Shown: positions 1 to 63,757 of the stretch, piece by piece
Layout: every line of letters begins with the position of its first letter
Numbering within the stretch: position 1 is the stretch's first letter
Assembly (NCBI GenBank): GCA_947456245.1
Contig: CANGPS010000003.1
Coordinates: 1-64,000, forward strand
Direction: 5' to 3'
Length of the DNA: 64,000 nt
From: Acidimicrobiaceae bacterium
GTDB taxonomy: Bacteria; Actinomycetota; Acidimicrobiia; Acidimicrobiales; RAAP-2
Notes under the pieces: generated by a model
Told to the model about the DNA's origin: nothing
Databases searched by the model: none
The model's input: only the letters and a program-made list of their open reading frames with translations
Translations under genes and position numbers: made by a program

Positions 1-402
1 CTCAGCTCGTTCCTCGTCGCGCAGGTCCTCTTCGCCGTCGGCTTCTTGATCCAGCCCCACGGCTCGCTGCTGGCCTGCGTGGCGGTGATGCTGCTCGTCG
101 CCGGTGGGCCGTCCGCCATCGTCCTGCGTTCGGTGCGCCACAAGGCACCGGAGGTCCTCGGCCCCGTCGTCGTCTACGTGGCAGCCATCACGCTGATGGC
201 CGCCGCCGCCATCGCCGTCGGCATCCACGAACCGGGGCGACGGGTCCCCGCCATCATCGGTGGCCTCTCCTTCGTCGCCTCTGATCTACTCCTGGCGATC
301 AACAAGTTCGTCCGGCCGCTGCGCTACGAGTCGCTGATCGTGCACGTGACGTATCACGTGGCCCTGTTCGGCCTGACGATCGGGATGCTGGCGATCAGCT
401 AG
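1..402 (+). CDS. YhhN-family membrane protein (lysoplasmalogenase-like), 5' partial
   Basis: Frame open from base 1; multi-TM protein with C-terminal SDLLLAINKF motif typical of YhhN family. Confidence 0.7.
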   Translation, partial: LSSFLVAQVLFAVGFLIQPHGSLLACVAVMLLVAGGPSAIVLRSVRHKAPEVLGPVVVYVAAITLMAAAAIAVGIHEPGRRVPAIIGGLSFVASDLLLAINKFVRPLRYESLIVHVTYHVALFGLTIGMLAIS

Positions 403-1192
403 CCGAGACCACGGCGAACCGCCCGTCGCCGTGCCGGAGGACCTCGACGTCGACGCCGAACGCCGAGGAGATGACGGTCGAGGTGATCACCTCGTCGATC
501 GGCCCCGACGCGAACGGGGAACCTCCTCGCAGGACCAGCGCGTGGGTCAGGCCGATCGGGAGCTCCTCGAGGTGGTGGGTGACGAGCACGACGGGTGCGG
601 GGCTCGGGTCGGTCATGAGACCGGCCAGACGGGCGAGGAGGTCCTCCCGGGCACCGAGGTCGAGCCCGGCAGCTGGCTCGTCGAGGCACAGCAGCTCGGG
701 GGCCCCGATGAGCACCCTTGCCAGCAGGACGCGGGCGCGCTCGCCCTCGGAGATGACCCCGACCTGCCGCTGGGCGATGGACGCGATGCCGAGGAGCTCG
801 AGCAGCTCGTCCGCCCGACGGTGGTCGCCAGGCTCGTAGGTCCGCCACCATGGCTCGAGCGCGCCGTCCACCCCGGTGACGACGATGTCGTGCACCGACA
901 CCCGTGGCCGGAGCGCACGGGTCACCGCGGCAGAGTGGAAGCCCAGCCGGATCCGGAGCTCACGCAGATCGACCCGACCGAGCGTCTCGCCGAGGAGGCT
1001 CACCGTTCCCGCCGTCGGCCAGTGCCGACCGGCGATCACGCTGAGCAGCGTCGTCTTGCCTGACCCGTTCGGGCCGAGCAGCGCCCATCGCTCGCCCTCG
1101 CGGATGACGAGGTCGGGGACGTCCAGGGTCACCACCCCGGAGTGGACGACCCTGAGGCCCTCGATCCGGACGACCTCCGCGGGATCAGGCAC
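395..1192 (-). CDS. ABC transporter ATP-binding protein (orphan ATPase)
   Basis: Walker A GPNGSGKTT, Walker B LLCLDEP, GTG start; signature is a degenerate SEGERARV. Confidence 0.85.
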   Translation of the reverse strand: MPDPAEVVRIEGLRVVHSGVVTLDVPDLVIREGERWALLGPNGSGKTTLLSVIAGRHWPTAGTVSLLGETLGRVDLRELRIRLGFHSAAVTRALRPRVSVHDIVVTGVDGALEPWWRTYEPGDHRRADELLELLGIASIAQRQVGVISEGERARVLLARVLIGAPELLCLDEPAAGLDLGAREDLLARLAGLMTDPSPAPVVLVTHHLEELPIGLTHALVLRGGSPFASGPIDEVITSTVISSAFGVDVEVLRHGDGRFAVVSAS

Positions 1193-1201
1193 GCGTGGTG
1201 A

Positions 1202-1876
1202 TCACCCGTGCAGCCCGCACTCGGTCTTGTCCGAGTCAGCCCATCGTCCCGCTCGGGGATCCTCGCCGGGGGCCACGGGACGGGTGGTCGGCGCACAGCC
1301 GATGGACAGGTAGCCCTGCGGGATGAGGGGGTGGATCGGCAGGTCGTTGGCCTTCTCGTAGTAGGCGACGTCCTCGTCGGTCCAGGTGGCCAGCGGGTTG
1401 ATCTTGACGAGGCCGAACTTGTCGTCCCACGAGATGATCGGGGCGTCGCCTCGGGTCTGGGCGTCCACCCGCTTGACCGAGGTCAGCCACGCGTCCTTGC
1501 CAGCCACGGCGCGCATCAGCGGCGCCACCTTTCGTCCCTGGCAGCAGCCCGACTCCCCGCACGGCACGGGGTTCTCGGCCGGGTCAGGGTGGGTCACGAC
1601 CAGGTTCAGGTCGTAGCGCCTCCGGACATCCTCGACATAGGCGAGGGTCTCGGGGAAGTGCGCCTCGGTGTCGAGGAAGATGACCTCGAGGTCGGGGGCT
1701 GCCTTGACGGCGATGTCGAGCAGGACGATGTCCTGGAAGCTGCAGGCGTAGGTCAGGCTGGACGAGTAGGTCTCGATCGCCCACGAGACGATCTCTCCGG
1801 GCGATGCCGTCTCGAACCGGGCCGAGGCTGCGGCCAGCTCATCGAGGAGCGACGGGGTGGGTTGGGTGCTGCTCAT
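1202..1876 (-). CDS. cysH: Assimilatory adenylyl-sulfate (APS) reductase, 4Fe-4S type
   Basis: PAPS/APS reductase fold; CC...C..C cysteines (GCCQGRKV, IGCAPTTRPV) and C-terminal ECGLHG. Confidence 0.92.
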   Translation of the reverse strand: MSSTQPTPSLLDELAAASARFETASPGEIVSWAIETYSSSLTYACSFQDIVLLDIAVKAAPDLEVIFLDTEAHFPETLAYVEDVRRRYDLNLVVTHPDPAENPVPCGESGCCQGRKVAPLMRAVAGKDAWLTSVKRVDAQTRGDAPIISWDDKFGLVKINPLATWTDEDVAYYEKANDLPIHPLIPQGYLSIGCAPTTRPVAPGEDPRAGRWADSDKTECGLHG

Positions 1877-1930: not shown

Positions 1931-2656
1931 CTACCGAGGCTGGTCCGATGTGAGACCAGCCAGATCTGTGACGGCGCCGATGACGATGACGGCGGGCGCC
2001 TCGAGGTGGACGTCGCCGAGGGCGCCGAGCGTGGTGGCCACCCGGCGCTCGGCCGGGGTGCTGCCCCACTCGACGGCCAGCACCGGGGTGCCTGGGGGGA
2101 GCCCGCCCTCGACGAGGGCGGCGGCGATCCCCGACCGCGCTGCCACTGCCATGAGCAGCACGAGGGTGGCGCCACTGGCGGCGAGCGCAGCCCAGTCGAC
2201 GTCGCCGTTGGTGCCGTTGTGGCCCGACACGATGGTGACCGCCTGGCTGACCCCCCGGTGGGTGACCGGCACCCCGGCCAGCGCTGGGACCGCCAAGGCC
2301 GACGAGATCCCAGGGACGACCTCGACGTCGATGCCGGCGGCGGCGAGGGCCAGGACCTCCTCCCCGCCGCGTCCGAGGACGAAGGGGTCGCCCCCCTTGA
2401 GCCTCACGACCACCTCGGAGCGCGCCCCGTGCTCGAGGAGCAGCGCGTTGATCTGCTCCTGGGTGGTCGAGGCCGAGGGATCGTGTCCGTGCTTGCCGGC
2501 CAGGATCACCGTCGCCCCCTCGGGCACCTCCTCGAGCAGCCGACGATCCACGAGACGGTCGACGATCACCACGTCGGCCGAGGCGAGGAGCTCTCCCCCG
2601 CGCCGCGTGAGCAGGCCTGGGTCCCCGGGTCCTGCGCCGACGAGGTAGACCGTCAT
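1931..2656 (-). CDS. cobA: Uroporphyrinogen-III C-methyltransferase
   Basis: VYLVGAGPGDPGLLT, VVRLKGGDPFVLGRGGEE motifs of SUMT. Confidence 0.93.
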   Translation of the reverse strand: MTVYLVGAGPGDPGLLTRRGGELLASADVVIVDRLVDRRLLEEVPEGATVILAGKHGHDPSASTTQEQINALLLEHGARSEVVVRLKGGDPFVLGRGGEEVLALAAAGIDVEVVPGISSALAVPALAGVPVTHRGVSQAVTIVSGHNGTNGDVDWAALAASGATLVLLMAVAARSGIAAALVEGGLPPGTPVLAVEWGSTPAERRVATTLGALGDVHLEAPAVIVIGAVTDLAGLTSDQPR

Positions 2657-3303: not shown

Positions 3304-3355
3304 CAGGTTTGTCAGGGGTCGCTCAAATACTTTATAGTTGATCAGGTTAGTCAAC
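3302..3355. promoter_or_regulatory. Divergent promoter/operator between met8 and sir: direct repeat ATCAGGTTWGTCA (3302-3314, 3341-3353) and inverted repeat GTTGA-N9-TCAAC (3337-3355)
   Basis: Repeats read directly; plus-strand TTGTCA(3309-3314)-N18-TATAGT(3333-3338) resembles sigma70 -35/-10; AT-rich island in GC-rich DNA. Confidence 0.6.
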
Positions 3356-3409
3356 AATTGGCATCCGGCAGGCACGACCCCGGCTGACCAGCACGAGAGG
3401 GAGAGAGCC

Positions 3410-3448
3410 GTGGGCTCAGCCAACGAGATGATCGGGGCGGGACGATGA
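3410..3448 (+). CDS. Candidate 12-codon upstream ORF (VGSANEMIGAGR) whose TGA overlaps the sir ATG
   Basis: GTG preceded by purine-rich GAGAGGGAGAGA; stop 3446-3448 overlaps sir start 3445-3447 (ATGA). Confidence 0.35.
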   Translation: MGSANEMIGAGR

Positions 3449-5166
3449 GCACGCGGCGCATCGACTCCGACGACCCCTTCGGTCTCAACCTCGGTGGACC
3501 CGACGAGGGACAGCTCCCCTTCCTCCGCCCGTACCGCAACCTCCGCCAGCTCTCCGACCCCGAGATGATGAAGCTCCGTCGGCACCCGTTCGAGGTCGCC
3601 CAGGGGATCATCGAGACCTACTCGGTCCAGGGCGTCGAGGCCCTCAATGCCGTCCCCGGCGAGGTCGAGCGCCTCAAGTGGGTGGGCCTCTACCCGCAGC
3701 GCCAGGGCGGCGATGCGTTCATGATGCGCATCAAGGTCGCCGGAGGCGTGCTGACCGCCGAGCAGGCCCGGGAGATCGGGATGATCGCCGAGGGCTACGC
3801 CCACGGTCCGGTCGAGCACCCGAGGTTCGGGAACCGCTACGTCGACATCACGACCCGTCAGGCCGTCCAGGTCCACTGGCTCACGATGGCCTCGATCCCG
3901 AAGATCTGGCAGCGCTTCGCCGAGGTCGGGCTCACCTCGATCCAGGCATGCGGTGACTGCGCTCGCAACGTGACCGCCTGCCCGACCAGCGGAGCGGACC
4001 CCGACGAGGCCGTCGACACCCTCGGCGTGGCCCGGGCCATCTCGGACTTCTTCACCGGCAACCGCTACTACGCCAACCTCCCGAGGAAGTTCAAGCTCGC
4101 CGTCTGCGGCTGCGGCAAGGACTGCACCCGCGTCGAGATCAACGACGTGGCGCTGTGGGCCGCCGAGCGCGACGGCGTCCAGGGCTTCAACCTCCTCGTG
4201 GGTGGCGGCCTGTCTGACGGCGAGCGGATGGCGACCGACGTCGACGTCTTCGTCGAGGAGCACGAGGCCGTCGAGATCGCTCGTGCCGTCGCCCAGCTCT
4301 TCGGCGAGCTCGGCAACCGAGAGCACCGCGGCCTGGCCCGCATGCGGTACCTCGTCCAAGAGCTCGGTCCCGAGCAGTTCCGCGCCGAGCTCGCCGCCCG
4401 AACCAGCCTCGAGCTGCGCACGGCTGGCACCGAGCGGACCACGAGCTACCGACGCGACATCGTCGGCGTGCACCCAGAGCGCACCGCAGGGATGTTCACC
4501 GTCGGGTGCAACATCCCGGTCGGTCGGCTGACCGGCGCCGAGCTCGTGGAGTTCGCTCGCCTCGCCGCCACCTACGGCGACAGCACGGTCCGCCTCGGCG
4601 TCGACCAGAACCTGGCGCTGACGGGCGTCTCGCAGGATCACCTCGACGCCCTGCTCGCAGAGCCGCTGCTCGAGAAGTTCAGCCCCACGCCGACCACGAT
4701 CGAGCGCTCGGTGGCAGCCTGCACCGGCAGCGAGTTCTGCCGGTACGCCATCGTCGAAACCAAGGAGCGTGCCCTCAAGCTCGCAGACGAGCTCGACCGG
4801 AAGGTGTCCGCCGCCCTCGGCGAGGCACCCCCTTCCGACGCACCGCTGCGAATCCACCTCTCCGGCTGCTCTGCGTCCTGCGGCCAGCCCCAGATCGCCG
4901 ACATCGGCCTCCGCGGGGCAGTGAACAAGTCCGGCACGACCCTCGAGGAGGGCTACGACGTCGGGTTCGGCGGGGTGCTCGGTCCGGAGGCCAGCTTCGT
5001 CGACTGGATCGGCGGCGCCGTCCCGGCCCGCTCGTTGTCCGATGCGCTCTCCAAGGTCATCGTGGCCTGGGCACAGGGACGCAAGGACGGCGAGGGCTTC
5101 ACGCCCTGGATCCGACGCACACCGGTGGCGACGCTGCGAGAGCTCATCGGCGAGGAGGCCTCATGA
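3445..5166 (+). CDS. sir: Siroheme/4Fe-4S nitrite/sulfite reductase, ferredoxin type, probably assimilatory sulfite reductase
   Basis: CTGSEFC and SGCSASC siroheme/4Fe-4S cysteines; located with cysH, cysDN and siroheme genes. Confidence 0.9.
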   Translation: MSTRRIDSDDPFGLNLGGPDEGQLPFLRPYRNLRQLSDPEMMKLRRHPFEVAQGIIETYSVQGVEALNAVPGEVERLKWVGLYPQRQGGDAFMMRIKVAGGVLTAEQAREIGMIAEGYAHGPVEHPRFGNRYVDITTRQAVQVHWLTMASIPKIWQRFAEVGLTSIQACGDCARNVTACPTSGADPDEAVDTLGVARAISDFFTGNRYYANLPRKFKLAVCGCGKDCTRVEINDVALWAAERDGVQGFNLLVGGGLSDGERMATDVDVFVEEHEAVEIARAVAQLFGELGNREHRGLARMRYLVQELGPEQFRAELAARTSLELRTAGTERTTSYRRDIVGVHPERTAGMFTVGCNIPVGRLTGAELVEFARLAATYGDSTVRLGVDQNLALTGVSQDHLDALLAEPLLEKFSPTPTTIERSVAACTGSEFCRYAIVETKERALKLADELDRKVSAALGEAPPSDAPLRIHLSGCSASCGQPQIADIGLRGAVNKSGTTLEEGYDVGFGGVLGPEASFVDWIGGAVPARSLSDALSKVIVAWAQGRKDGEGFTPWIRRTPVATLRELIGEEAS

Positions 5167-6434
5167 AGCGCTACCGGCTCAGGGAGTCGATGAACGGGAT
5201 CGCAGAGCCACCGCGCAAGACGTGGTTCTGGGAGCTCGAGGCCGGCGTGATCGAGGCCGATCGGTGCATCCAGTGCGGGACCTGCGTGGCCGCGTGCCCC
5301 TCGAACTCCATCGGCATCAACGAGGACACCAACCTTCCTGAGCTCGTCAAGATGTGCACGGGCTGCTCGCTGTGCTGGGACTTCTGCCCCCGCGGTGGCC
5401 TCCGCTACGAGACCACCTGGCCGCCGTCGACCCCATCTGATGCTCCGGAGGCCCAGCCGGTCGAGCTCGTGACCAAGCCCGACCCCGCCGACACCTACTT
5501 CAAGCTCACCGGCGCCGCCCCCGGCAAGGGGCTCGGGCGGGTCGAGGCCACCTACGCCGCACGGGCCGCCAAGCGGACCGATGGCGTGCAGGACGGCGGC
5601 GTCGTCACCTCCCTGCTCGTCGCCCTGCTCGACTCCGGCGAGATCGACGGGGCACTCGTGGCGAAGCCGTCCTCAGACCCCGACGAGCCCTGGAAGGCCG
5701 TCCCGACGGTGGTCACCTCGGCGGCAGAGATCAAGGCCGCCGCCGGGAGCTTCTACAACCAGTCGATGGCGCTCGCGGCGCTCGACCTCACCGGCAAGGG
5801 CCTCCCTGCGAACCCCCGACTCGCCGTGGTCGGGACACCATGCGAGGTCGCCGGTCTCCGAGCGATGCAGTCGCGTCGCTGGCCCACCGGCAGCCATCGC
5901 GTCGACGCTGTCTTCCTGACGATCGCCCTGTTGTGCACCAAGTCGTTCAGCTACGAGGGATTGATGCTCGACGAGCTGAAGCGGCGGCGCGGCATCGATC
6001 TCGACCGGGTCTCCAAGGTGGACGTGACCCGTGGCCGCCTGATCGTGGAGTACATCGACGGCGCCACCGCCGTCGACGAGCCGATCAAGGCCTTCCACGG
6101 GGCGGCGCTCAAGGGCTGCGACGAGTGTGCCGACTTCCTCGGCCGGGCCGCCGACATCTCGGTGGGCTCGGTGGGTTCCAACGACGGATGGACGACCGTG
6201 CTGGTCCGCACCGAACGGGGCAGGCAGTCCTTCGAGGCCGCACGGCGCAGCCTCGACGTACGCGACCTCGATGACGCGAGTGCTCTGATCCGCCTCGACG
6301 AGCTCGACCAGAAGATCGCCAGACGAGCGATGGCCCGTGACCTCGACCCGATGGGAGAGACCTTCATGACCTATGACGACCACGTCGCCAACTACGCCGG
6401 CACCTCCCGGCAGCCGGTGGTGATCCGCCGATGA
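5163..6434 (+). CDS. Coenzyme F420 hydrogenase/dehydrogenase beta-subunit (FrhB) family protein with N-terminal ferredoxin domain
   Basis: CIQCGTCVAACP and CTGCSLCWDFCP 4Fe-4S motifs; VQDGGVVTSLL, LLCTKSF, GCDECADF FrhB-family motifs; ATGA overlap with sir. Confidence 0.85.
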   Translation: MKRYRLRESMNGIAEPPRKTWFWELEAGVIEADRCIQCGTCVAACPSNSIGINEDTNLPELVKMCTGCSLCWDFCPRGGLRYETTWPPSTPSDAPEAQPVELVTKPDPADTYFKLTGAAPGKGLGRVEATYAARAAKRTDGVQDGGVVTSLLVALLDSGEIDGALVAKPSSDPDEPWKAVPTVVTSAAEIKAAAGSFYNQSMALAALDLTGKGLPANPRLAVVGTPCEVAGLRAMQSRRWPTGSHRVDAVFLTIALLCTKSFSYEGLMLDELKRRRGIDLDRVSKVDVTRGRLIVEYIDGATAVDEPIKAFHGAALKGCDECADFLGRAADISVGSVGSNDGWTTVLVRTERGRQSFEAARRSLDVRDLDDASALIRLDELDQKIARRAMARDLDPMGETFMTYDDHVANYAGTSRQPVVIRR

Positions 6435-6739
6435 GCGCCCTCCACCTCCACCTCCCCGACGAGCCCACGGTGCTCGCCGAGCAGTGGCTCGACGATGTCG
6501 TCGGCGGCCAGAGCCTCGAGTCGGTCTTCGGCGGCGAGAGCGGCCTCGGCGCATGGCTCTGGCACCGCTGGCGCTCACTCGCTGCCGCCGGGCTGACCCA
6601 GGCCGACTTCGATGCCATCGTGCTGTCGTCACGCCGGGAGCTCTGGCTCTGGCTCGCCGGCGAGCGGACCTGGACCCAGGCCTGCTCTGGCCTGCTCGGC
6701 CGCATCGAGCGCCGCATCCCGGACGAGGCGGCGGCATGA
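6431..6739 (+). CDS. Uncharacterised 102-aa Trp-rich protein in the sulfate assimilation operon
   Basis: 4-nt ATGA overlaps with both the upstream FrhB gene and downstream cysD; no family recognised. Confidence 0.75.
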   Translation: MSALHLHLPDEPTVLAEQWLDDVVGGQSLESVFGGESGLGAWLWHRWRSLAAAGLTQADFDAIVLSSRRELWLWLAGERTWTQACSGLLGRIERRIPDEAAA

Positions 6740-7659
6740 CGACCACCGACACCGCGTCGAACGAGCGCATCGACCACCTCGACCTGCTCGAGTCGCACGC
6801 CATCTTCATCATCCGCGAGGTGGCCGCCGAGTGCGAGCGGCCCGTGCTCCTCTTCAGCGGCGGCAAGGACTCGGCGGTGCTCCTGCACCTCGCCATCAAG
6901 GCCTTCGCCCCGGGCAAGCTGCCCTTCCCGATCATGCACGTCGACACCGGGCACAACTTCCCGGAGGTCATCGACTACCGAGACCGGCTGGTCGAGCGCC
7001 TCGGCGAGCGCCTCATCGTCGCCTCCGTCCAGGAGAGCATCGACAAGGGCCGCGTGGCCGATCCCGGGCCGTTCGGGATGCGCAACCGGCTCCAGACCAC
7101 CGCGCTGCTCGACGCCATCAACGAGCACAAGTTCGATGCCGCCTTCGGCGGCGCTCGGCGTGACGAGGACAAGGCCCGGGCCAAGGAGCGCGTCCTGTCC
7201 TTCCGAGACGCCTTCGGCCAGTGGGACCCGCGCAAGCAGCGTCCCGAGCTCTGGCAGCTCTACCAGGGCAAGGTGGCCCCCGGCGAGCACCTGCGCGGGT
7301 TCCCGCTGTCGGACTGGACCGAGCTCGACATCTGGCAGTACATCGCCCGGGAGGACATCGAGCTGCCGACCATCTACTTCTCCCACCAGCGCGAGATCAT
7401 CCAGCGTGACGGGATGCTGCTCGCGGTCAGCGAGTGGGTCCAGCTCCGCGAGGGCGAGGTGGTCGAGACCCGGACCGTGCGCTTCCGCACCGTCGGCGAC
7501 GCCACCTGCACCGGCTCCGTCGAGAGCCACGCCTCGACCATCGAGGACATCATCACCGAGACGGCCACCTCGACGGTCTCTGAACGCGGGGCGACCCGTG
7601 CGGACGACAAGTTCTCCGAGACCGCCATGGAGGACCGCAAGCGAGAGGGCTACTTCTAG
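6736..7659 (+). CDS. cysD: Sulfate adenylyltransferase subunit 2
   Basis: LLFSGGKDSAVLLHLA PP-loop, FDAAFGGARRDEDKARAKER, C-terminal MEDRKREGYF. Confidence 0.96.
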   Translation: MTTTDTASNERIDHLDLLESHAIFIIREVAAECERPVLLFSGGKDSAVLLHLAIKAFAPGKLPFPIMHVDTGHNFPEVIDYRDRLVERLGERLIVASVQESIDKGRVADPGPFGMRNRLQTTALLDAINEHKFDAAFGGARRDEDKARAKERVLSFRDAFGQWDPRKQRPELWQLYQGKVAPGEHLRGFPLSDWTELDIWQYIAREDIELPTIYFSHQREIIQRDGMLLAVSEWVQLREGEVVETRTVRFRTVGDATCTGSVESHASTIEDIITETATSTVSERGATRADDKFSETAMEDRKREGYF

Positions 7660-7663
7660 AGCC

Positions 7664-8962
7664 ATGACGACCACGACCACCAACGACGACGTGATGGACC
7701 TCCTGAGGTTCGCCACCATCGGATCAGTCGACGACGGCAAGTCCACCCTCATCGGGAGGCTCCTCGTGGACACGCGCCAGCTCTTCGACGACCAGATCGA
7801 CGCCGTCGCCCAGGCCTCGAAGGACCGTGGCGTCGGCGACCTCGACCTCTCCTTCGTGACCGATGGCCTCCGGGCCGAGCGCGAGCAGGGCATCACCATC
7901 GATGTCGCCTACCGCTACGCGGCGACGCCCAAGCGCAAGTTCGTCATCGCCGACTGCCCCGGGCACGTCCAGTACACGGCCAACATGGCCACCGGGGCCT
8001 CGACGGCCGACCTCGCCCTGGTGGTGGTCGACGCCACCACCGGCCTCAAGGAGCAGACTCGACGCCACCTGTGCATCGCCTCGCTCCTCGGCGTCCGTCA
8101 GCTGATCGTCTGCGCCAACAAGATGGACGAGGGGAACTGGCGGTTCCCGCTCTACGAGCGGGTCGTCGCCCAGATGTCGGCGCTGGCCAAGACGCTCGAG
8201 ATCGAGTCGCTCACGGTCATCCCGATCTCGGCCCTCAACGGTGACAACGTCGTGGACCGCTCCAACGCCGCTCCCTACTACGAGGGCCCCACGGTCCTCG
8301 AGGCCCTCGAGAGCGCCCCGGCCGGAGGATGGGCCGGCGTCCACGGCGTGGAGACCGATGAGGCCACCCGCCTCCCGGTCCAGTGGATCCTGCGGCAGCC
8401 GGGCGGCGGCCGCACCTATGCCGGGATGGTCGACGGCGCCCCCATCCGAGTCGGCGAGCAGGTCACCGTCCTCCCGGCCGGGCTGACGAGCACCGTCACC
8501 GAGGTCCGCACCCCAAGCGGTCCGACCGACGTCGCCGCCGTGGGCCTCTCGGTCTCCGTGGCCCTCGCTGACGACCTCGACGTCTCTCGGGGCGACATGA
8601 TCGTCGGGTCAGCCAACCAGCCGACGGTCACCAACGAGATCGAGGCGACCATCTGCTGGTTCGGGACCGGTTCGCTCACCCCGGGAAGCCGCTTCCGGGT
8701 CAAGCACACCACTCGGACCACGCCCGGGATCGTCGACACCATCTCCGCCAAGCTCGACGTCAACGACCTCAGCCTCAGCGGAACGAGCGAGCTGGTGTCG
8801 AACGAGATCGGCGTGGTGCGCCTCAAGACGGCCGACCCCCTCGTGGTCGACTCCTACGGGGTCAACCGCATCACCGGCAGCTTCGTGCTCGTCGACGAGG
8901 TGACCAACATCACCGTGGCCGCCGGAATGGTCGGCATCCCCACCCTGCTGCACCAAGGCTGA
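7664..8962 (+). CDS. cysN: Sulfate adenylyltransferase subunit 1 (GTPase), no fused APS kinase
   Basis: GSVDDGKSTLIGRLL, DCPGHVQYTANM; 432 aa. Confidence 0.95.
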   Translation: MTTTTTNDDVMDLLRFATIGSVDDGKSTLIGRLLVDTRQLFDDQIDAVAQASKDRGVGDLDLSFVTDGLRAEREQGITIDVAYRYAATPKRKFVIADCPGHVQYTANMATGASTADLALVVVDATTGLKEQTRRHLCIASLLGVRQLIVCANKMDEGNWRFPLYERVVAQMSALAKTLEIESLTVIPISALNGDNVVDRSNAAPYYEGPTVLEALESAPAGGWAGVHGVETDEATRLPVQWILRQPGGGRTYAGMVDGAPIRVGEQVTVLPAGLTSTVTEVRTPSGPTDVAAVGLSVSVALADDLDVSRGDMIVGSANQPTVTNEIEATICWFGTGSLTPGSRFRVKHTTRTTPGIVDTISAKLDVNDLSLSGTSELVSNEIGVVRLKTADPLVVDSYGVNRITGSFVLVDEVTNITVAAGMVGIPTLLHQG

Positions 8963-62641: not shown

Positions 62642-63757
62642 ATGCCTCCCGAGAAGCCCCAATGGACCGAGCTGTACACCGAGGTCGTGACCGGTGGACT
62701 GTGCACCGGGTGCGCCGGTTGCATCATCGCCTGCCCGCACGACGTCCTCGACTACGACACGAGCGACGGTGCCTACAAGCCCTTCCACCTCGACATCGAC
62801 GGCTCGATCGACTCGTGCACCCACGGAGAGAAGGGCTGCACGATGTGCACCCGCGCCTGTCCGAGGTTCCGGATGTGGGAGACCGAGATCGATGAGAAGC
62901 GCTTCGGCCGGGAGCGCACCGACGACGAGGTCTTCGGCCAGAGCCTCGACATCGTGCTCGCCCGGGCCACCGACCCCGAGCTCGCCGCCGCGGGCCAGGA
63001 CGGCGGCTTCGTCTCGGCGCTGCTGACCTTCGCCCTCGAGAACGACCACATCGACGCCGCCCTGGTGTCCGGCCTCGAGGGAGGTGGCAGCTGGCGAGCC
63101 GTGCCGACCATGGTGCGCACCCGCGACGAGGTGCTCGCCACGGCGGGGTCTCGCTACACCTACTCGGCCAACACGCTCGCCTACCCGGATGCCATCGCCA
63201 CCGGGGCCGAGCGCATCGCCCTCGTCGGGATGGGCTGCCAGGCGTCAGCCCCCGGTGCCATGCAGGCCCGCAAGGCCGGCAAGATCGCCCGACGGCTCTC
63301 GCTCTCGATCGGCCTGCTCTGCTCGAAGACCTTCGACGACGCCATCTTCGAGGAGCTCTTCGAGGCCAAGTACGGCATCGCCCGCCACGAGATCGTCAAG
63401 ATGAACATCAAGGGCGTCTTCCAGCTCTGGCTGACCGAGGACCGCTACGTCGAGGTCCCGCTCAAGGAGTGCCACGCCTGGACCCGCGAGGGCTGCAAGT
63501 CCTGCCCAGACTTCGCCGCCGAGCACGCCGACATCTCGACCGGTGGCATCGGCAGCTTCAGCGACTGGACCCTGACGATTGTCCGGACCGAGGCCGGGCG
63601 TGAGCTGCTCGATGCCATGATCGCCGCTGGTGCGGTCGAGACGAGGCCCGGAGACGACGACCCCGCCGGCATCGCCCTGCTCCGTCGGCTCGCCGGGGTG
63701 AGCCGGAAGCGCTGGCCGGCCACGGCGGTCGAGGCACCCCGCCGTCTGCCGGCCTGA
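62642..63757 (+). CDS. Second FrhB-family protein (coenzyme F420 hydrogenase/dehydrogenase beta subunit) with ferredoxin motifs
   Basis: CTGCAGCIIACP, CTMCTRACP, GQDGGFVSALL, LLCSKTF, GCKSCPDF. Confidence 0.88.
   Translation: MPPEKPQWTELYTEVVTGGLCTGCAGCIIACPHDVLDYDTSDGAYKPFHLDIDGSIDSCTHGEKGCTMCTRACPRFRMWETEIDEKRFGRERTDDEVFGQSLDIVLARATDPELAAAGQDGGFVSALLTFALENDHIDAALVSGLEGGGSWRAVPTMVRTRDEVLATAGSRYTYSANTLAYPDAIATGAERIALVGMGCQASAPGAMQARKAGKIARRLSLSIGLLCSKTFDDAIFEELFEAKYGIARHEIVKMNIKGVFQLWLTEDRYVEVPLKECHAWTREGCKSCPDFAAEHADISTGGIGSFSDWTLTIVRTEAGRELLDAMIAAGAVETRPGDDDPAGIALLRRLAGVSRKRWPATAVEAPRRLPA

Follow-up and report, generated by a model that had tools for sequence, protein, structure and literature searches.

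A siroheme sulfite reductase gene (sir) and the frhB-type gene that overlaps it in an Acidimicrobiaceae bacterium very probably encode a two-component bacterial sulfite reductase of the assimilatory, F420H2-dependent type known as aFsr, the unit probably comprising three genes. Judged from sequence, the split F420H2-linked sulfite reductase put forward in a first-pass annotation is the best reading of the locus. It is favoured by the exclusive pairing of the two genes, the conservation of domains and ligands, the F420 genes of the host, the absence of CysJ and the cofDCE-cysH-sir-frhB cluster of the Rubrobacteraceae. The window, i.e. the whole stretch of 64,000 nucleotides that was analysed, contains the following features:

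1202..1876, reverse strand: cysH, the sulfite-forming (P)APS reductase (NF002537, 232.6 bits, above the cut-off)
1931..2656, reverse strand: cobA, uroporphyrinogen-III C-methyltransferase of siroheme synthesis (TIGR01469, 256.5 bits, above the cut-off)
2653..~3303, reverse strand: sirC-like precorrin-2 dehydrogenase of siroheme synthesis (Pfam NAD_binding_7 and Sirohm_synth_M; start inferred)
3309..3338, forward strand: possible promoter between sirC and sir (weak sigma-70-like match, 10/12)
3445..5166, forward strand: sir (aFsr-alpha), 573 aa, siroheme [4Fe-4S] assimilatory-type sulfite reductase (Pfam, invariant residues)
5163..6434, forward strand: frhB-type gene (aFsr-beta), 423 aa, ferredoxin domain with two [4Fe-4S] motifs and a predicted FrhB F420/FAD/[4Fe-4S] domain (Pfam, phmmer, ligand cysteines)
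6431..6739, forward strand: orf102 (candidate aFsr-gamma), 102 aa, third gene of the unit (conservation, AF2)
6736..7659, forward strand: cysD, sulfate adenylyltransferase small subunit (PAPS_reduct domain, CysD-like)
7664..8962, forward strand: cysN, sulfate adenylyltransferase GTPase subunit (assigned by sequence and by its position after cysD)

Pfam, NCBIfam and ORF analysis of the neighbouring genes confirmed the cysDN/cysH/siroheme setting described at first pass; the overlap of sir and frhB by ATGA and the two N-terminal 4Fe-4S motifs of FrhB were likewise borne out by ORFs and Pfam. The same 4-nt overlap is shared by the sir/frhB, frhB/orf102 and orf102/cysD junctions. As sir and frhB are read in different frames, they are two ORFs and not one polypeptide. 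The unit had originally been described as one of two proteins; the sir/frhB pair stands, but it is usually joined by a third, small gene (~100 aa), which had been missed. The sirC-like gene and sir are divergent, and the gap between them holds one sigma-70-like match where 0.2 were expected. Beside this promoter-like site lies an inverted repeat, GTTGA...TCAAC (3338-3360), which is possibly a regulator site. An Rfam scan of the first 12 kb of the window gave no match. An ABC ATPase gene (395-1192, reverse strand) adjoins cysH; of the 80 loci of the best-matching FrhB relatives (80 of 254), 37 also have such a gene near the pair.

The FrhB protein consists of Fer4 (residues 29-78), FrhB_FdhB_N (130-207) and FrhB_FdhB_C (219-369) domains in Pfam, with PF04422 and PF04432 above the cut-off. 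Its top phmmer match is Fsr (7np8, E 1.1e-41), and the leading PDB relatives of its profile are all F420-linked enzymes, Fsr among them. Across bacterial and haloarchaeal pairs all eight N-terminal cysteines are kept, as are C227, C258, C319 and C322 and, save for one Gly-to-Ser change, the QDGG motif. The four single cysteines match the noncanonical cluster-1 motif (PC...C...CxxC) described for Fsr. The protein therefore has, at the sequence level, both the FAD site and the noncanonical [4Fe-4S] motif of the FrhB/FDRC family, and its domain order and complete set of cysteines are those of a separate Fsr-N homologue with two extra N-terminal [4Fe-4S] clusters, as proposed for aFsr. The AF2 model of the protein was poor (pLDDT 60, under 50 in the ferredoxin part). 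The window also carries an orphan FrhB paralogue of 371 aa (62642-63757) without sir, likewise overlooked at first pass. This orphan family (30-38% identity) is almost universal in the order, some FrhB match being present in 143 of 149 genomes, and one of its ferredoxin cysteines is replaced, often by Glu.

The Sir protein shows two NIR_SIR_ferr and two NIR_SIR stretches in Pfam, and in an alignment of the bacterial and haloarchaeal pair Sirs the residues R95, R138, K215 and K217 and the cysteines C426, C432, C475 and C479 are invariant. With its two S/NiR repeats and the siroheme-[4Fe-4S] cysteines kept, it is of the aSir/NirA type expected for the reductase subunit of aFsr. The R, R, K-x-K set presumably binds sulfite, as judged from E. 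coli SiRHP and plant NiR. Pfam detected no Fer4 domain in Sir, which hence has no inserted ferredoxin domain. All pair Sirs, and some other Sirs of the order, share four further cysteines in the first S/NiR repeat (C169, C179, C223 and C227), possibly ligands of a second [4Fe-4S] cluster. By sequence, Sir is homologous to ferredoxin-dependent Sir/NirA, yet it was always found paired with frhB.

For this pairing we scanned 85,488 species, which yielded 254 FrhB relatives; the best 80, all of which were examined, belong to Acidimicrobiia and Rubrobacter. The survey of sir-FrhB adjacency suggested at first pass was thereby carried out: in 76 of these 80 loci the gene immediately preceding frhB is sir. 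Since frhB lies at a contig end in the other four, so that every one of the 76 loci with sequence upstream of frhB has sir directly before it, chance adjacency can be excluded. Most pairs are spaced by -4 or -1 nt, -4 being the commonest, although the locus sets overlap and the counts are not independent. Within the order, close FrhB relatives (51-69% identity, the window itself aside) occur in 18 of 149 genomes, and the Sir subfamily is confined to the same 18, where it adjoins frhB except at contig ends. Genes for cysH, siroheme synthesis, cysDN or sat/cysC adjoin the pair in related loci. More distant pairs (37-43% identity) were found in other actinobacteria and as a second copy in one genome, with sir kept and usually cysH as well. 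In one genome (G110) a second, diverged sir-frhB pair (locus L212, 4720-7612, ~40% identity) shows its frhB homology in two reading frames.

Among the 149 genomes of the order the third gene is present in 16, all of them pair-bearing and in each case beside frhB (Fisher p 1e-19), and it accompanies 71 of the 80 loci (best 80 of 254 FrhB relatives). A few near relatives of the window lack it, as do the haloarchaeal and the distant pairs, so it is not obligatory. The ~100-aa protein has conserved Trp and Arg residues (ELWLW..GER.W....GL.GR..RR) and an all-helical AF2 model (pLDDT 92.5). Family scans gave no Pfam or NCBIfam match, and neither a profile search nor a fold search of the model against the PDB returned anything convincing. 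The protein, a candidate aFsr-gamma, may be an assembly or docking subunit.

A host without F420 biosynthesis would have spoken against the proposed electron donor, as was pointed out at first pass. This objection does not apply: the host genome encodes a 764-aa FbiC, CofD and an F420:NADP oxidoreductase (NpdG), with fbiC and cofD on contigs other than that of the window. A second CofD-family match was considered as FbiA and rejected, as it is YvcK. There is a single sir-type match in the genome and none for cysJ, the flavoprotein partner in CysJI. F420 genes are clustered with the pair in one family, the Rubrobacteraceae, in which all loci with enough flanking sequence have the order cofD-cofC-(aroG)-cofE-cysH-sir-frhB-orf100-sat-cysC on one strand. 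The cultured R. taiwanensis has this joint F420-gene/sulfate cluster, on a contig that spans cofD to orf100. In several loci LLM and PPOX/FbiB-C-terminal-like genes and fbiC lie beyond the cluster. A membrane protein encoded after cysC in the Rubrobacter cluster (locus L215, 9157-9963) has a TauE/SafE-type look and, going by its sequence, is perhaps a sulfur anion carrier. In 14 genomes of the phylum cofH is located 7-15 kb from frhB. Within the order, co-occurrence of the pair with F420 genes is uninformative, cofH being near-universal there; the comparison called for at first pass was thus made at the phylum level, where 34 of the 40 genomes with the pair had cofH above the cut-off, compared with 158 of the 359 remaining ones (p 5e-7 by a Fisher test that ignores kinship, which inflates co-occurrence statistics). 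Some pair-bearing MAGs are without cofH, and cofD was detected in most of those tested (G082, G142, G357 and G367); G398 and the genome of locus L139 had neither cofH nor cofD, and G104 had a cofD fragment only.

These few MAGs with neither gene count against F420 as the donor. They would fit an alternative in which FrhB is a ferredoxin-dependent or other non-F420 flavoprotein adaptor, so that free ferredoxin or another donor supplies the electrons and F420 is uninvolved, as in plant HCAR. FrhB-fold proteins that work without F420 do exist: a fold search with the AF2 model of FrhB matched not only F420 enzymes but also HCAR (5dqr). Proteins of this fold also adjoin polysaccharide genes in alphaproteobacteria. 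On the other hand, the closest solved relatives of FrhB are F420 enzymes, and in the Rubrobacteraceae the pair is set among cofD, cofC and cofE. Furthermore, ferredoxin passes its electrons to NirA/Sir enzymes without an intermediary, which would make an interposed FAD protein superfluous. We therefore consider a non-F420 adaptor improbable.

The design itself is known as a proposal for archaea. On haloarchaeal plasmids, an FrhB homologue (43-48% identity) directly follows a Sir homologue (41-45%), as found in Haloferax mediterranei, Salinirubellus, Haladaptatus, Halomontanus and Natronococcus. These pairs correspond to the aFsr pairs proposed in 2012 (PMC3448663). In the Sir tree, bacterial and haloarchaeal pair Sirs form one clade apart from other Sirs (supports 100/99), and the FrhB tree likewise separates the pair FrhBs of both groups from the orphan FrhBs (supports 99/93). 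Loci and both trees thus agree on adjacent genes and on a common ancestry with the haloarchaeal pairs. The haloarchaeal FrhBs are nested among the actinobacterial ones in a tree whose rooting is weak. In two Natrialbaceae loci (L155, 3242-5866; L156, 3544-5943), aFsr-type Sir homology lies inside long proteins annotated as rhodanese-like, which are apparently Sir-rhodanese fusions; NirA-rhodanese fusions have been reported in Halobacteria (PMC11237513).

Haloarchaeal Sir homologues are otherwise annotated as ferredoxin--nitrite reductase, and one haloarchaeal homologue adjoins nosZ. Together with the nearest solved relatives of Sir, which are nitrite reductases, and with the ability of Fsr to reduce nitrite as well (PMC10229431), this might suggest that the pair is an F420-dependent nitrite reductase of nitrogen assimilation. 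Such a role is very unlikely given that the neighbours of the pair are cysH, cysD, cysN, sat, cysC and siroheme genes. In addition, every pair Sir has K217, a position taken by Asn in some of the order's NirA-type proteins, which fits sulfite as the substrate. Least likely of all is that frhB serves to reduce F420 for unrelated purposes and merely happens to be located in the cys operon: FrhB-family enzymes can run both ways, as in F420-reducing hydrogenase or CODH (PMC11493965), but the overlapping pairing is strict in Acidimicrobiia, Rubrobacteraceae, other actinobacteria and haloarchaea, and the sulfite/sulfide couple (~-116 mV) lies far above F420 (~-380 mV) (PMC10229431).

The proposed F420H2-dependent sulfite reductase made of Sir and FrhB can be compared with four known systems. 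In 2012 Susanti and Mukhopadhyay proposed aFsr for haloarchaea as an aSir (aFsr-alpha) with an Fsr-N homologue (aFsr-beta) (PMC3448663). Its freestanding aSir-type and Fsr-N-like subunits, encoded by adjacent genes, belong to the same Sir and FrhB groups as the bacterial pairs (41-48% identity). Here, in contrast, the host is bacterial, the setting is that of sulfate assimilation, a third ~100-aa gene is usually present and, in the Rubrobacteraceae, the pair forms part of an F420-biosynthesis cluster. The third gene is missing from the haloarchaeal loci examined, some of which have a rhodanese-linked Sir. Methanogen Fsr (7NP8, 7NPA; PMC10229431), which converts sulfite to sulfide, shares with FrhB the two-[4Fe-4S] ferredoxin domain followed by the FrhB F420H2-oxidase domain, including the unusual cluster-1 cysteines. 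Fsr of groups I and II is, however, one polypeptide, in which the Dsr-like reductase has a single repeat and an insertion in the form of a ferredoxin domain, whereas the present system has two proteins and a two-repeat assimilatory reductase lacking that insertion. The zeta subunit of the F420-reducing CODH and FwdI of Ca. Ethanoperedens (8RIU, 8RJA; PMC11493965) are likewise freestanding ferredoxin-FrhB modules, each of which connects F420 with a partner metalloenzyme; the partners are unrelated, and the direction is the opposite one, i.e. F420 reduction. Finally, ferredoxin-dependent NirA/Sir and NADPH-dependent CysJI have a homologous siroheme protein and the same role in the cysteine pathway, but use ferredoxin or the CysJ flavoprotein where FrhB is proposed to act here.

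In Fsr, electrons pass from FAD via cluster 1 and the N-terminal clusters 2 and 3 to the inserted ferredoxin domain of the reductase and on to siroheme (PMC10229431). A similar route can be proposed for the split enzyme, with complex formation and the direction of electron flow inferred. F420H2, produced at least partly from NADPH by the F420:NADP oxidoreductase of the host, would pass a hydride to the FAD of the FrhB domain, which is predicted to bind both FAD and F420. Single electrons would then move via the FrhB [4Fe-4S] cluster held by C227, C258, C319 and C322 to the N-terminal pair of [4Fe-4S] clusters, which would act as a built-in ferredoxin, and further to the [4Fe-4S]-siroheme of Sir. 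Sir has no inserted ferredoxin domain, and on the simplest reading the ferredoxin domain of FrhB would dock at the site that free ferredoxin occupies on plant Sir. Sir would reduce the sulfite provided by CysH to sulfide for cysteine.

The remark at first pass that no described bacterial example was known needs qualification. In the literature searched for such an example, only two papers, of 2012 (PMC3448663) and 2022, came up, with Rubrobacter and Thermobaculum sequences in their FrhB-family figures; the design as such had been proposed in 2012 as haloarchaeal aFsr. Our literature search found no assay of the proposed aFsr. What is new here is the broad actinobacterial distribution, the joint F420/sulfate cluster, the third gene family and an FrhB tree that nests haloarchaea among bacteria. 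A more far-reaching version, in which a heterotrimeric F420H2-dependent sulfite reductase includes a new third subunit family, Rubrobacter and many Acidimicrobiia depend on F420 when growing on sulfate, and the haloarchaeal aFsr derives from actinobacteria, contrary to the archaeal origin that has been proposed, is tentative, and we would give it somewhat less than an even chance.

Many soil and freshwater actinobacteria thus appear to make sulfide for cysteine by an F420-powered sulfite reductase that is fed via a partner protein. If so, core sulfur assimilation would be added to the functions of F420 in bacteria; a review from 2021 gives the FrhB-type F420 oxidoreductase family for Euryarchaeota only (PMC8498797). 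Widespread annotations as 'ferredoxin--nitrite reductase' would be corrected, and the split enzyme could show what an unfused stage of Fsr looked like. The linked F420/sulfate cluster makes the aFsr proposal of 2012 directly testable, and Rubrobacter taiwanensis offers a cultured organism in which this can be done.
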